Source: a bacterium
Lineage (GTDB): Bacteria; Actinomycetota; Acidimicrobiia; Spongiisociales; ZC4RG35
NCBI GenBank assembly: GCA_028819345.1
Contig: JAPPLW010000102.1
Span: 1-47,872, forward strand
DNA: 47,872 nt
Direction: 5' to 3'
Shown here piece after piece: positions 25,652-30,615 of the stretch. Made by a program: the position numbers and the translations under genes. Every line of letters starts with the position of its first letter. The first letter of the stretch is position 1. The notes beneath the pieces are model-generated. The model made no database searches. It saw only the letters and a list, made by a program, of their open reading frames with translations, and was not told where the DNA came from.

Positions 25652-27292
25652 ATGACTGCTCATTCTCCAATCGCTATCGTGCCCGAAATGACGCTGGTTT
25701 CCTCCCGGACGGAGCGCAACCGGACCGCGGCAATCTACACGCTGGTCTCCGTGGTGGGCATCTCGGTGCTGCCCCTGGTCGTGGTGATGGTGGGAGCGCC
25801 GGAGAGCCCGCTGTTGTTCGGCGCCTTCCTGTCGGTCGGCACATCCGCGGGGTCACTGGCTTTCCTGGCGGGCCGGTACCGCGCGCAATTGCGGAACCGG
25901 GAGATCCTGGCCCTCATCAAGAAGAACCTGGCGAGTTGGCCGATTCTCTTCGTCCTGGTCGGCACGTTCGAGTTCACGTTCTTCGCCTGGAGCACCAGGT
26001 TCGTCGACCCTTCGGTGGCCACCATCCTGTGGGGAAGCTGGCCGATAATCTTCGTGTTCCTTCTCCGCCGGATCTTCAGCGGCAAGCGGGCGCAGGCCAA
26101 CCGCTACAAGAAGATCACCCCGTCGCTGGTCCTGCTCATGGTCCTCAGCCTGGTCGGCCTGGCCTTCGTCGTCCTGGCCCAGGCGAGCAAGCAAACCGGG
26201 TTCGACTGGACATCGGACTCATCCTGGGTCGGGTTCGTGTTTGCGGTGTTCAGCGGGGTGCTCATCACTCTCAACATCTTCTCCTTCTCCTGGGCGGCGG
26301 ACCTGGCCAGCAAGGCCAGGACGCTGAACTTCGCCAGGGGGCCCCGGAGCATGGAGTTGTTCTTCATGACGGTGGTGGTGTGTGTCTCAAATGCCTTCAC
26401 CGCGCCGATCAAGGCGGGGTTCAGCCTGGCGGCGTCCGAGCCGATCCAGACCGACGTGATACTGGGAGCCCTGATCATGGGCGGCACGCTGAGGGTGGGG
26501 AGTTCCCTGCTTTGGCGTCACGCCAACCAGATCACCCATGCGCTCGGTATCAACGCCATCGGGTATGGGGAGCCGTTGTTCGGAGTGCTGTGGCTGGCAC
26601 TGTTCTGGGAAGTGGACATCTCTCGGGTCGACTACCTGGTACTCGGAACCTGCGCCATCATCGCCTCCAACATCCTCATCAACTCCGAGGTCGAGATCAG
26701 CCGGGGATTCAAGTCGGCGATCCTGGCGATGTGGGCGACCGGCGCCATCGTCTATTTAAGAGACGATGGCCCGCTGTGGGGAAGCGGGCGGTTCTTCGGC
26801 GTCCTGGCCCTGCTGGCCGGCGCCTTCGCCCTGTTGCAGGCCCTCCGCTCGACCGCCTCGCCTCCCCCTGCCGGAAGGCACGCCCTGGATCGGCCACTCC
26901 CGTCGGAGGCAGCGCCGCGGCGTGCCAGGAGCCCACTGATCACAGACCGACTCAACCTTGCCCGGACGTTCACCATGGGCCTGTACGGTGCGGTGGCGAT
27001 CGCATTGACGATCATCGTCCGACCTGCGGTGACAGGATGGGTGGGGCTGGCCGTTGAGGTGTTCGCGGTCTCTTTTTGCACCGCTATCGCGGCCTCCGCC
27101 TTTTACACCGGCGGCTGGCCCGGGGTGGTTGGTAGACGTCCCGAACGGGCCGTCGGGACGGAACTTCCCGGAGAGGCGTACGCCGGCTGGGAGCAGCGAG
27201 AACGCCGGATTGCGAACTGGACCAACGCCGCGGTGGCGACCGGGACCTATCTCTCGTTCTTGTATCTACTCTGGGACAAGTGGCTGAATTGA
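25652..27292 (+). CDS. EamA/DMT-like multi-pass membrane transporter
   Basis: 546 residues from the ATG at 25652 (an ATG at 25688 is also possible; no strong ribosome site marks either). About ten helices in the first 370 residues follow the drug/metabolite transporter pattern: ILWGSWPIIFVFLL near helix 4 and GYGEPLFGVLWLALFW near helix 9. Four more helices follow after about residue 375, which makes the protein clearly longer than a normal 300-residue DMT exporter. The end overlaps the esterase gene by 13 bases. Substrate unknown; export of a metabolite from the adjacent amino acid genes is a guess. Confidence 0.7.
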   Translation: MTAHSPIAIVPEMTLVSSRTERNRTAAIYTLVSVVGISVLPLVVVMVGAPESPLLFGAFLSVGTSAGSLAFLAGRYRAQLRNREILALIKKNLASWPILFVLVGTFEFTFFAWSTRFVDPSVATILWGSWPIIFVFLLRRIFSGKRAQANRYKKITPSLVLLMVLSLVGLAFVVLAQASKQTGFDWTSDSSWVGFVFAVFSGVLITLNIFSFSWAADLASKARTLNFARGPRSMELFFMTVVVCVSNAFTAPIKAGFSLAASEPIQTDVILGALIMGGTLRVGSSLLWRHANQITHALGINAIGYGEPLFGVLWLALFWEVDISRVDYLVLGTCAIIASNILINSEVEISRGFKSAILAMWATGAIVYLRDDGPLWGSGRFFGVLALLAGAFALLQALRSTASPPPAGRHALDRPLPSEAAPRRARSPLITDRLNLARTFTMGLYGAVAIALTIIVRPAVTGWVGLAVEVFAVSFCTAIAASAFYTGGWPGVVGRRPERAVGTELPGEAYAGWEQRERRIANWTNAAVATGTYLSFLYLLWDKWLN

Positions 27293-28293
27293 TCTCCCCT
27301 CAGGAATCCCCCCAGCGGACCCAGGATGCCGCCATCGACTGGGACCACCGCCTCGATAGCCGGAGCAGGGCCGTGTTGGAGATGATCCCGGCCGCCCTGC
27401 GAGACATGACCGACATCCCGGCCGCTCGCCGGGCCATGGAGGAGTTGACCGCGGCCACACTCGCCGTCAATCCCGACATTCCGGGAGTGGACACAGAGGA
27501 CCACTGGGTGCGGGGCGCCCCGGGTGACCCGGACGTGATGGTGCGGGTCTACACGCCGTCGGGCGTGGGCGCGCCGGCGCCCGGCTATTACTGGATCCAC
27601 GGCGGGGCGATGGTGGTGGGAAGCGTCGCCATGGACGACCTCAGATGCAAGGAACTGGCCGCCGACATGGGCTGCGTGGTTGCCTCGGTGGAGTACCGCC
27701 TGGCTCCCGAGCACCCGTATCCGGCGCCGGTCGAGGACTGCTACGCGGGGTTGAAGTGGTTCTTCTCCCAGGCGGAACACCTGGGAGTGGATCCGTCCAG
27801 GATTGTCATCAGCGGCACCTCGGCGGGCGGTGGGTTGGCCGCCGCGGTGACCCTTCTGGCAAGAGATAGGGGCGAGATGGAGATTGCCTTCCAGCAACTC
27901 ATCTATCCGATGCTGGACGACCGCAACATCACCCCTTCCAGCCACTCGGTCCAGCACCCCAAGATGTGGAACCGCCAGTCCAATATCGCCGCGTGGAGCG
28001 CCTTTCTGGGGAAACCGGCCGGCTCGGAGGATGTCTCTCCCTACGCGTCGCCGGCCAGACACGACGACTTGTCGGGCCTGCCTCCTGCGTTCATCATCGT
28101 GGGCGAGTTGGACCTCTTCGTGGACGAGGACATCGAATACGCCCAACGCCTGACCCGGGCCAGCGTGCCCACCGAACTCCACGTGTTCCCAGGCGCCTTC
28201 CACCTGAGCGACCGTTACCTGCCGACGTCCCCGACCAGCAGGCGCTGGGCGGCCGTCACCCGGGCGGCCCTGCGCGAAGCTCTCCACGGGTAG
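27280..28293 (+). CDS. HSL-family alpha/beta hydrolase (esterase/lipase)
   Basis: 337 residues from the GTG at 27280. The oxyanion-hole motif is H107-G-G (YYWIHGGAMVVGS), the nucleophile is Ser181 in SGTSAGGGL, and the acid and base are Asp278 (GELDLFVDED) and His308 (PGAFHLSD). SVEYRLAPEHPYPAPVEDCYAGLKW is typical of the hormone-sensitive-lipase family, which hydrolyses short-chain esters in the cytosol. The gene overlaps the upstream transporter gene, so the two are coupled. Confidence 0.9.
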   Translation: MAELISPQESPQRTQDAAIDWDHRLDSRSRAVLEMIPAALRDMTDIPAARRAMEELTAATLAVNPDIPGVDTEDHWVRGAPGDPDVMVRVYTPSGVGAPAPGYYWIHGGAMVVGSVAMDDLRCKELAADMGCVVASVEYRLAPEHPYPAPVEDCYAGLKWFFSQAEHLGVDPSRIVISGTSAGGGLAAAVTLLARDRGEMEIAFQQLIYPMLDDRNITPSSHSVQHPKMWNRQSNIAAWSAFLGKPAGSEDVSPYASPARHDDLSGLPPAFIIVGELDLFVDEDIEYAQRLTRASVPTELHVFPGAFHLSDRYLPTSPTSRRWAAVTRAALREALHG

Positions 28294-28330: not shown

Positions 28331-28703
28331 CTACCTTCCGTCCTGAATGAGAACCCGCCCGCCGTCCTCCACTTCGATGAACAGGCGATGGCGGTCCATC
28401 AACTGCATACCAACGAGAGGGACGTTGTCGGACATGTAGGCATCGACGCGACGGGGGCGACCGTCCCAAAGAACAATTGTCCGGTAGACATCGAGTATCG
28501 CCGTAGTGCCATCGGCCAGAGTCAGGTGAGGTATCCGACAGGCGTAGTAGCTCCAGGGTGGCTACCGATTCCGATGGCAGGGTCAGGAACGCGTTGAAGC
28601 CGGTATCGAGGACGGCTTCGATCTCCGCGCTCCGCCCTGAGGGGCCTAGGACAGTTAGGGTCATGACCGGTTCGTAGTCGGCGTTCACTACGCCCTGTAT
28701 CAC
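28331..28703 (-). pseudogene. Retropepsin-like aspartic protease gene with a frameshift
   Basis: The start GTG at 28703 overlaps the upstream stop (GTGA). The first 54 codons read GVVNADYEPVMTLTVLGPSG and AVLDTGFNAFLTLP, where DTGF is the catalytic Asp-Thr-Gly of clan AA single-domain proteases. Near 28530-28550 the frame breaks. The homologous second half continues one base over: LTLADGTTAILDVYRTIVLW, then VPLVGMQLMDRH and FIEVEDGGRVLIQ, ending at a TAG at 28331-28333. The span is 373 bases, one more than a multiple of three, consistent with a single inserted base. Either the gene is inactivated or the assembly carries one error here. Confidence 0.78.
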
Positions 28704-28957
28704 ACCGCCCTCGGGATGAACCGGCCCCCAATCGTGGCCATGGTCCGGAACCCGACCCGCTCGCTCCAGACGTTGACAGCGTCCGGGCTCTGCTCCCACA
28801 GACGCTCTACCGCCCCCGACACATCGCGGCCGAGAGCCCAAATGCCGGTCTCCACATCGATGACGACCACCTCTCTAAAGTGGTCCGCCTCCACCTGCGG
28901 GCGGATGTCCCGCTGGTAGATCTCCCTGCCCAGGCGGGCAGTCTCCTCCTTAGACAT
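28700..28957 (-). CDS. Small conserved protein paired with an aspartic protease
   Basis: 85 residues from the ATG at 28957 (MSKEETARLGREIYQRDI). The body VEADHFREVVVIDVETGIWALGRDVSGAVERLWEQSP and WSERVGFRTMATIGG forms a compact alpha/beta unit. Its stop overlaps the start of the retropepsin-like gene. Such coupled small gene plus single-domain protease pairs recur in cyanobacteria and actinobacteria, and the arrangement resembles a toxin-antitoxin or chaperone-partner module, but I know of no tested function. Upstream ATGs at 29017 and 29050 are possible but less likely starts. Confidence 0.65.
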   Translation of the reverse strand: MSKEETARLGREIYQRDIRPQVEADHFREVVVIDVETGIWALGRDVSGAVERLWEQSPDAVNVWSERVGFRTMATIGGRFIPRAV

Positions 28958-29133
28958 GGTTGGCACCCTGCGGTCCACAACCTCCCGTCCCGGCGATGCC
29001 ATCTCCACATCCCTCATCGTTGAATCCGCCTTCCAAGGCGTCTTCGACATCGCCCATAGTACCTGGCTCCCGGACTATAAGACTGGCGGAGGGCGCCGGA
29101 CAATCTTGAAGCCGTGTTCGATTCCCTATCCGG

Positions 29134-30615
29134 TCAGGGGACCAGCGCCGCCGCGGCGTCGCCGAAGAAGGTGGCTAGTCCCGGGAACACTCCCACCACC
29201 AGCACCACCACCAGCGCCAGGCCCATGGCCAGGGAGAGGGGCCCGGTGGGGCCGGTCTCGGTGTCCTCGGGGATCTTGTCAGGCGCCTCGTCGAACCAGG
29301 CGCTCTTCACCACCCGGGCGTAGTAGTAGAAGGCCACCACCGCGTTGACCGCGGCGATCACCGCCAGCCACACTCCCGCCGGTCCGGTGGAGATGAGCAC
29401 CGCCCGGAACATCACGAATTTGGCGAACCACCCGGCCAGCGGAGGCAACCCGGCCAGCGACAGGAAGAACACCGCCAGCATCACCCCCAGGCGGGGTGAG
29501 TAGGAGCCCAGACCCCTCCAGTCGGGGATCTCATAGCTTCCGATGCGCCGCCCTCCGGCGATCACCACCGCGAAGGCGCCCAGGTTCATCACCGCATAGA
29601 TGACCAGGTAGATGACGGTGGCGCCCAGGCCTTCCGACAGGCCGTCGGTGGCAATGGCGCCCCCTGCGAAGGGCACCAGCATGAACCCGGCCTGGGCCAC
29701 CGACGAGTAGGCGAGCAGGCGGATCAGATGGGACTGGCGCAGAGCCGACAGGTTGGCCACCGTCATGGAGACCGCCGCCATCAGCCACAACGCCGGGCCC
29801 CAGAAGTCGGTCACCGCCGGGAGAGCCAGGTAGATCACCGCCAGCATGGCCACGAACCCGGCCAGCTTGGAGGAGACCGAGAGATAGGCGGTCACCGGCG
29901 GAGGAGACCCCTGGTAAGTATCCGGCGCCCAGAAGTGGAAGGGGACCGCCGAGACCTTGAAGCCGAACCCCACCAGGATCAGGAGCACCGCCAGGCCCAG
30001 CACCGGCTCGGAGGCCATCCCGCCCGCCGAGATCGCCTCCCGGATGCCGTCGAAGGACAGTTCCCCGGTGAGACCGAAGAGGAGCGACATCCCGTACAGC
30101 ATCAGGCCGGTGGACAGCACCCCGATTATGAAGAACTTGAGCGAGGCCTCGTTGGAGCGGAGGTCGCCCTTGCGCCACCCGGCCAGGAGGAACAGCGGGC
30201 CGGTGGTCAACTCCAGGGCGACGAACAGCACCACCAGGTCCCGCGCCGAGGTGAGAACCATCGAACCCAACAGCGAAGACAGAAGGAGCAGGTAGTACTC
30301 GCCCTGGTAGTAGCGGTCGGACTCGATGTAGGAGACCGAGATGAGGAGCACCAGGTAGCCCGCCACCAGGAACACACCCTTCAGCACCAGCGCGAACTCG
30401 TCCACGACATAGGAACCGTCGAACATCGAGTAGTTGTCGCCGGAGACCGCCATGAGGATCACCGGCACCATGGCCAGGGTGGTCCCCACCACGGCCAGCG
30501 CCGCCACCCAGTATTTTCGCTCCCGGGGCAGGAACAGATCGACTGCCAGCACCACCAGGAGGGCGGCGGCCACCACCACCTCGGGCGCGATGGCCAGCCA
30601 GTCGATCCTCGGCAC
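29134..30615 (-). CDS. nuoN: NADH-quinone oxidoreductase subunit N
   Basis: 493 residues, GTG start with GGAGG seven bases upstream. It is an antiporter-like proton-pumping subunit of complex I with about 14 membrane helices. VSAVPFHFWAPDTYQGSPPPVTAYLS and LLAYSSVAQAGFML are hallmarks. Last gene of the operon; the next gene upstream is nuoM, three bases away. Confidence 0.96.
   Translation of the reverse strand: MPRIDWLAIAPEVVVAAALLVVLAVDLFLPRERKYWVAALAVVGTTLAMVPVILMAVSGDNYSMFDGSYVVDEFALVLKGVFLVAGYLVLLISVSYIESDRYYQGEYYLLLLSSLLGSMVLTSARDLVVLFVALELTTGPLFLLAGWRKGDLRSNEASLKFFIIGVLSTGLMLYGMSLLFGLTGELSFDGIREAISAGGMASEPVLGLAVLLILVGFGFKVSAVPFHFWAPDTYQGSPPPVTAYLSVSSKLAGFVAMLAVIYLALPAVTDFWGPALWLMAAVSMTVANLSALRQSHLIRLLAYSSVAQAGFMLVPFAGGAIATDGLSEGLGATVIYLVIYAVMNLGAFAVVIAGGRRIGSYEIPDWRGLGSYSPRLGVMLAVFFLSLAGLPPLAGWFAKFVMFRAVLISTGPAGVWLAVIAAVNAVVAFYYYARVVKSAWFDEAPDKIPEDTETGPTGPLSLAMGLALVVVLVVGVFPGLATFFGDAAAALVP

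Follow-up and report, generated by a model that had tools for sequence, protein, structure and literature searches.

Relatives of the HIV protease have been catalogued in bacteria since 2009, and almost none of their functions is known. The protease studied here belongs to TIGR03698 (clan_AA_DTGF)/COG5550, a family of single-domain proteins of about 120 aa with a DTGF motif. The definition of that family takes account of the protease only, and the pair described below adds a partner to it; of COG5550 it was written that 'little is known', and neither function nor partner was described (PMC2642776). TIGR03698 is not mentioned in the literature searched, which consisted of open papers only, where absence is no proof. 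RimB and RloA are likewise single-domain bacterial retropepsins encoded in small operons, with ATP-grasp ligases and RloB as partners and with known physiological roles (PMC12239564, PMC11957791).

Type II toxin-antitoxin systems such as ParDE and VapBC have much in common with the pair: two small overlapping genes, an upstream partner that sometimes carries an RHH domain, mobility, multiple copies and an effector that is lost first. They differ in that neutralisation is known there and is putative for the present pair. To our knowledge, no type II toxin is a retropepsin. Retropepsins go unmentioned in the Makarova survey of type 2 systems, and the open papers searched contain none joined with toxin-antitoxin or anti-phage functions. 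ImmA/ImmR-type pairs of COG2856 and Xre also combine a small protease gene with a small, sometimes DNA-binding partner, but they consist of a zinc protease and an HTH protein, in contrast to the aspartic protease and DUF5678-like fold considered here. DUF5678 (PF18929) itself, a distant homologue of the partner whose genes also precede clan AA proteases, is named once in the open-access literature searched, in an unrelated plant paper. Lastly, proteases of a sister family described below match PADLOC PDC-M08, weakly and in component B only (best E 1.4e-5), whereas the partners match none of its components. PDC systems are unvalidated candidates (PMC12988326; PMC11514479), and PDC-M08 does not occur by name in the open-access literature searched. 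Window-type proteins matched nothing in PADLOC, and a known defence model was rejected for them on that ground.

The window, i.e. the whole stretch of 47,872 nucleotides that was analysed, makes up all of contig C19 of its assembly. It carries the following features at and around the pair.

27280..28293, plus strand: alpha/beta hydrolase, convergent neighbour outside the module (translation read)
28331..28528, minus strand: second half of the protease, frame B, stop TAG at 28333-28331 (hmm positions 59-120)
28525..28550, minus strand: interval of the frame-shifting net gain of one base (alignment with three intact congeners)
28547..28703, minus strand: first half of the protease, frame A, GTG start at 28703 (hmm positions 2-57)
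28599..28607, minus strand: catalytic motif D33-T34-G35 (DTGF), from the translation; D, T and G invariant in the alignment
28700..28703, minus strand: stop/start overlap GTGA of partner and protease, 4 bases; exactly this length in 40 of 50 distinct pairs, from several phyla
28700..29017, minus strand: partner gene, 105 aa from a conserved ATG at 29017; frame intact and conserved in congeners and other phyla
29074..29103, minus strand: weak promoter-like site (9/12 match) within the 116-base gap behind nuoN
29134..30615, minus strand: nuoN (NADH-quinone oxidoreductase subunit N), upstream neighbour outside the module; same order in congeners

The original prediction had described a retropepsin-like protease with an intact DTG, broken by one base and overlapped by a small conserved gene, and the analysis agrees with it on each of these points. 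Frame A reads VIQGVVNADYEPV...AVLDTGFNAFLTLPSESVATLEL, with DTGF at codons 33-36, and the other frame reads HLTLADGTTAILDVYRTIVLWDGRP...VLIQDGR up to the stop at 28331; the span from start to stop is 373 bases, i.e. whole codons plus one, against 372 in the three congeners in which the pair is whole. When joined, the two pieces match TIGR03698 with 40.4 bits (E 2.9e-10), each piece alone being a weak match. This read-through stays below the curated cut-off of 57.35 bits, though it is homologous and has the DTG(F) motif; the intact congeners, at 51-56 bits, lie just under the cut-off, and other members of the pair family score 57.6-86 bits. From the sequence, which has the motif, we expect a single-domain, retropepsin-like protein that would contribute one D[ST]G per chain to a putative dimer; among proteins of solved structure, the closest in sequence is the Rickettsia protease APRc (E 0.001). 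The AlphaFold2 model of the protease (pLDDT 38 with three rows) was set aside, its poor quality being due to too few sequences. The same genome has a second clan AA protease (C94:77431-77724), of DTGA type and without a partner, which is present in five of the six congeners.

The partner frame is open from 29050 to 28700, and AAGGCGG precedes the conserved ATG at 29017, where the congeners have AAGGAGG. The boundary first proposed for this gene, 28957, is indeed an ATG, but an internal one at the beginning of the conserved core. The site behind nuoN is no defence island.

Six genomes of the genus, including that of the window (G000), were compared at the locus. In three of them (G001, G003, G004) the position behind nuoN is likewise occupied by the pair, here unbroken, with a protease of 123 aa in one 372-base frame, and for this reason the observation at the window locus is far beyond chance. 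In G005 the partner is kept (L004), and a deletion of about 1.4 kb, starting where the partner stops, has taken away both protease and hydrolase. All that is left in G002 is a remnant of the protease at another place, which lacks the half with the DTG and has no partner. The protease is thus broken or lost in three of the six genomes, and the partner is open in five.

Both halves of the window protease have dN/dS of about 0.4-0.5 against the congeners, like intact copies, and therefore the break is either recent or an error. An assembly or sequencing error, which would leave the module of the window intact, would account for the undisturbed dN/dS, and the contig is one of a MAG. Against this, the alignment with the congeners places no long homopolymer at the break, the same gene is broken repeatedly in unrelated genomes, and within the genus the protease is absent in one species and reduced to a remnant in another; we regard an error as unlikely.

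Recurrence of the pair in other bacteria, which had also been proposed, was confirmed with partner profiles: the two genes stand in the same order in sponge-symbiont Acidimicrobiia, in Rubrobacter-like actinobacteria (family f29, which we take to be Rubrobacter-like, the label coming from our own reading rather than from a tool), in Chloroflexota and on plasmids of Nostocales. Several copies occur per Rubrobacter-like genome, and up to six partner matches per Chloroflexota genome; the weak-scoring L012 and L034 of the first partner search were left out of the partner counts. Over 46 pairs, the divergence of the partner follows that of the protease (Mantel r 0.92, a value reached in 0 of 999 permutations). 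The pair is a genuine two-gene unit that is inherited together, and two small, overlapping and co-inherited genes are what a type II toxin-antitoxin system has. Copies in the same genome are usually only 32-75% identical and have their nearest relatives, up to 99% identical, in other genomes, which indicates that the unit moves between genomes. On plasmid pNSMS101 of Nostoc sp. MS1 the pair (L038:3486-4123) is flanked by the pglZ and pglX genes of a BREX locus, and on plasmid A of Trichormus variabilis it adjoins a ParDE pair. The pglX and pglZ genes of the Nostoc locus are on the strand opposite to the pair. A phage-borne module was rejected, since 50,697 phage records and two scans of IMG/VR gave no match to relatives of the pair. 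Two of the queries against plasmids, and the first against phages, were consensus sequences of our own making that served for locus finding only.

The window partner reached no family in Pfam or NCBIfam, has no solved relative by sequence and did not match DUF5678 at E up to 1 (Pfam cut-off 23.2 bits); one of 23 partner relatives touches DUF5678 (E 0.22). A comparison of profiles joins the partner family to DUF5678 with E 4.4e-5 and probability 69, and one protein, L098, is intermediate, as it matches both the partner profile and DUF5678 (E 7e-4) and precedes a DTGF protease. Taken together, these matches suggest that the window partner is a distant relative of DUF5678, and they support distant kinship only. 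In the AlphaFold2 model of the partner, built from five sequences, residues 23-87 form an alpha-beta-beta-alpha-beta core with pLDDT mostly above 90. Foldseek gave no match to this model in the PDB at E <0.001, and the best VIA-align Z of 3.1 says nothing either way on a known fold.

In Chloroflexota, most short DUF5678 genes are the first gene of another kind of two-gene cassette, in which a D[ST]G protease follows with an overlap like that of the window type; this sister set is larger than the window-type set. In one Chloroflexota order, DUF5678 occurs in 38 of 56 genomes, with up to nine copies per genome. The partner of L188 carries an RHH_1 domain above the curated cut-off; a second of ten sister partners matches RHH_1 more weakly, and the others, to judge by eye, start in a similar way. 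No RHH or other DNA-binding domain is present in the window-type partner, which departs from type II antitoxins in this respect. RHH-DUF5678 proteins gave no tblastn match on plasmids.

Some further loci of these Chloroflexota may be mentioned here. In the order of G496, L191-L276 comprise cassettes of DUF5678, in part preceded by RHH, and a D[ST]G retropepsin, with 4-base overlaps and many broken proteases. At L169 (G496) an RHH-like DUF5678 and protease pair is followed by a DUF2283-like gene. L214 and L215, from sister species, are near-identical pairs with whole partners; one of the two proteases has a nonsense codon, and the other is intact. The DUF5678-like matches L211, L216 and L218 have a different domain setting, within long open frames (about 550 aa) that follow a hypoxanthine phosphoribosyltransferase-like gene. 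L313-L319, from the same order, represent a weaker, separate subfamily of partnerless retropepsins (FDPPAP...LLDSGADVTLVP).

The two genes of the pair do not depend on each other equally. In 350 Chloroflexota genomes, searched for partner and protease independently, a partner accompanies 37 of 39 strong protease matches; of the two exceptions, one is a truncated pseudogene that has no DTG and lies next to the remnant of a partner, and one is a fragment at a contig end. Conversely, 14 of 54 strong partner matches are without a protease. The 296 actinobacterial genomes gave the same picture, with partners beside all nine intact proteases and several partners without protease. Protease-driven searches of the congeners, the Chloroflexota and the actinobacterial sample thus found no intact window-subfamily protease without a partner, and the effector, as in type II toxin-antitoxin systems, was never met without its candidate neutraliser. 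The partner had been called obligate-looking, and frequent partners without protease had been named beforehand as what would speak against it. In one direction the claim holds, given that every intact window-subfamily protease found has its partner; strict two-way obligacy is refuted by the orphan partners of the Chloroflexota and of congener G005. An excess of partners without protease is what a toxin-antitoxin module is expected to show, and therefore it does no harm to that idea.

Decay is equally one-sided. Among window-type loci, a whole partner beside a broken protease was found in about 11 independent cases (the window, L021, L042, L086, L092, L100, L153, L156, L157, L159 and the L137-L139 clade), the protease being broken by frameshift, stop, deletion or insertion sequence. 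In the sister set, as counted in the one Chloroflexota order, 52 pairs are intact, 11 loci have a whole partner and a broken protease, and 15 have the partner only; a possible twelfth locus with a broken protease, L209, is masked and stands outside the 11. Both types together give about 22 loci with the partner kept and the protease broken, and among loci with recognisable remnants none of either type has an intact protease beside a broken partner. A protease-driven search of the same order found no real orphan protease of the sister subfamily, the apparent ones having a divergent partner or lying at a contig end. A sign test weighted by gene length gives p ~0.0015 for the asymmetry in the window type, and p 0.01 on the Chloroflexota set alone, which was searched both ways. 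Partnerless clan AA proteases were dropped as a control for the decay rate, because their broken halves would fall below the search threshold. Where two genes are coupled, the upstream one may owe its better conservation to something else. Of the protease beside the orphan partners L137-L139 about 25 residues are left, and these partners have dN/dS of 0.07-0.09; an orphan partner can therefore stay useful after loss of the protease, and it may have a job of its own or neutralise other copies. In these three species, the partner under strong purifying selection is accompanied by a conserved stump of the protease start.

We tentatively read the pair as a toxin-antitoxin-like module with a retropepsin effector that is dead in the window genome, with a confidence that falls a little short of even. 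What the window holds would then be one copy, broken not long ago, of a mobile two-gene cassette. The upstream gene would yield a small DUF5678-like protein, and the 4-base overlap would couple to it the translation of the downstream retropepsin, a single-domain enzyme that probably acts as a homodimer, each chain bringing one DTG. The partner, as the antitoxin-like half, would be made first and would bind and restrain the protease, and the RHH partners of the sister family could in addition repress their own operon. Upon loss or displacement of the partner, through stress, phage or replicon loss, the protease would cleave cell proteins and growth would stop. In the window genome the effector would be dead, with the partner still open. 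The guess of the original prediction, a toxin-antitoxin or defence module that is costly to keep, is now better supported, by the one-sided decay, the RHH-DUF5678 sisters, the plasmid copies, one of them within BREX, and the weak matches of sister proteases to a PADLOC candidate; it is still something that we infer, the best-supported reading and unproven. More broadly, and with somewhat greater reserve, the pairs may represent a widespread mobile class of toxin-antitoxin or phage-defence modules, with a retropepsin as effector and an antitoxin of the DUF5678 superfamily, in at least two branches (DTGF without DNA-binding domain; RHH-DUF5678, up to nine copies per genome).

The ImmA protease cleaves the repressor ImmR, and this is the model for regulated proteolysis as another explanation, by which the partner would be a regulator, of RHH type in some pairs, that the protease cleaves to switch genes on, the protease being no toxin. 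The RHH domain on some DUF5678 partners, the constraint on the partner after protease loss and the known pairs of protease and DNA-binding protein (COG2856-Xre, PMC2701414) fit such a role. Window-type partners, however, have no DNA-binding domain, yet their pairing is equally tight, and dissimilar copies scattered across genomes resemble a selfish or defence module more than a fixed regulator. Repressor cleavage may apply to the RHH type and leaves the partners without DNA-binding domain unexplained, and as an account of the pair it seems improbable.

Alternatively, a protease with housekeeping or stress duties could need the partner as a subunit or as an adaptor for its substrate and be inactive alone, as in RimB/RimK and RloA/RloB/RloC. 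Known bacterial retropepsins do share small operons with the partners they work with (RimB-RimK, RloABC; PMC12239564), and the protease of the pair is co-inherited with its partner and never without it. A pure cofactor is nevertheless disfavoured, because it predicts symmetrical decay, in which an intact protease should stand beside a broken partner about as often as the other way round, and 0 against about 22 were seen; moreover, partners occur alone. We give this explanation a small share of our confidence.

Plain pseudogenisation of a dispensable pair, in which the downstream overlapping gene breaks first with no toxin-antitoxin meaning, appears less likely still: decay is common in these genomes and partners are also lost, but the asymmetry is strong and one-way in two sister families, and orphan partners are under constraint. 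Programmed frameshifting at the window protease was rejected because frame A continues without a stop well beyond the shift, as far as 28215, and the congeners are single-frame.

The finding holds; what makes it interesting is the family, not the broken copy of the window. One large group of bacterial retropepsins is now tied to a specific small partner, and that partner is linked to the undescribed DUF5678, some members of which have a classic antitoxin DNA-binding domain. This tie, together with the repeated loss of the protease beside its partner, makes the role of these proteases testable by co-expression. If the toxin-antitoxin reading is true, proteolysis by a retropepsin would be a way of killing that is new among toxin-antitoxin or defence modules.

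Two single loci deserve mention. In G501, an orphan partner (L131:1535-1777) lies directly upstream of a Phd-like antitoxin gene and a PIN-like toxin gene, as read from the translation. In G485, the protease frame of L083 is intact and its DTG is changed to DAG, possibly an attenuated or inactive enzyme that is kept with its partner.
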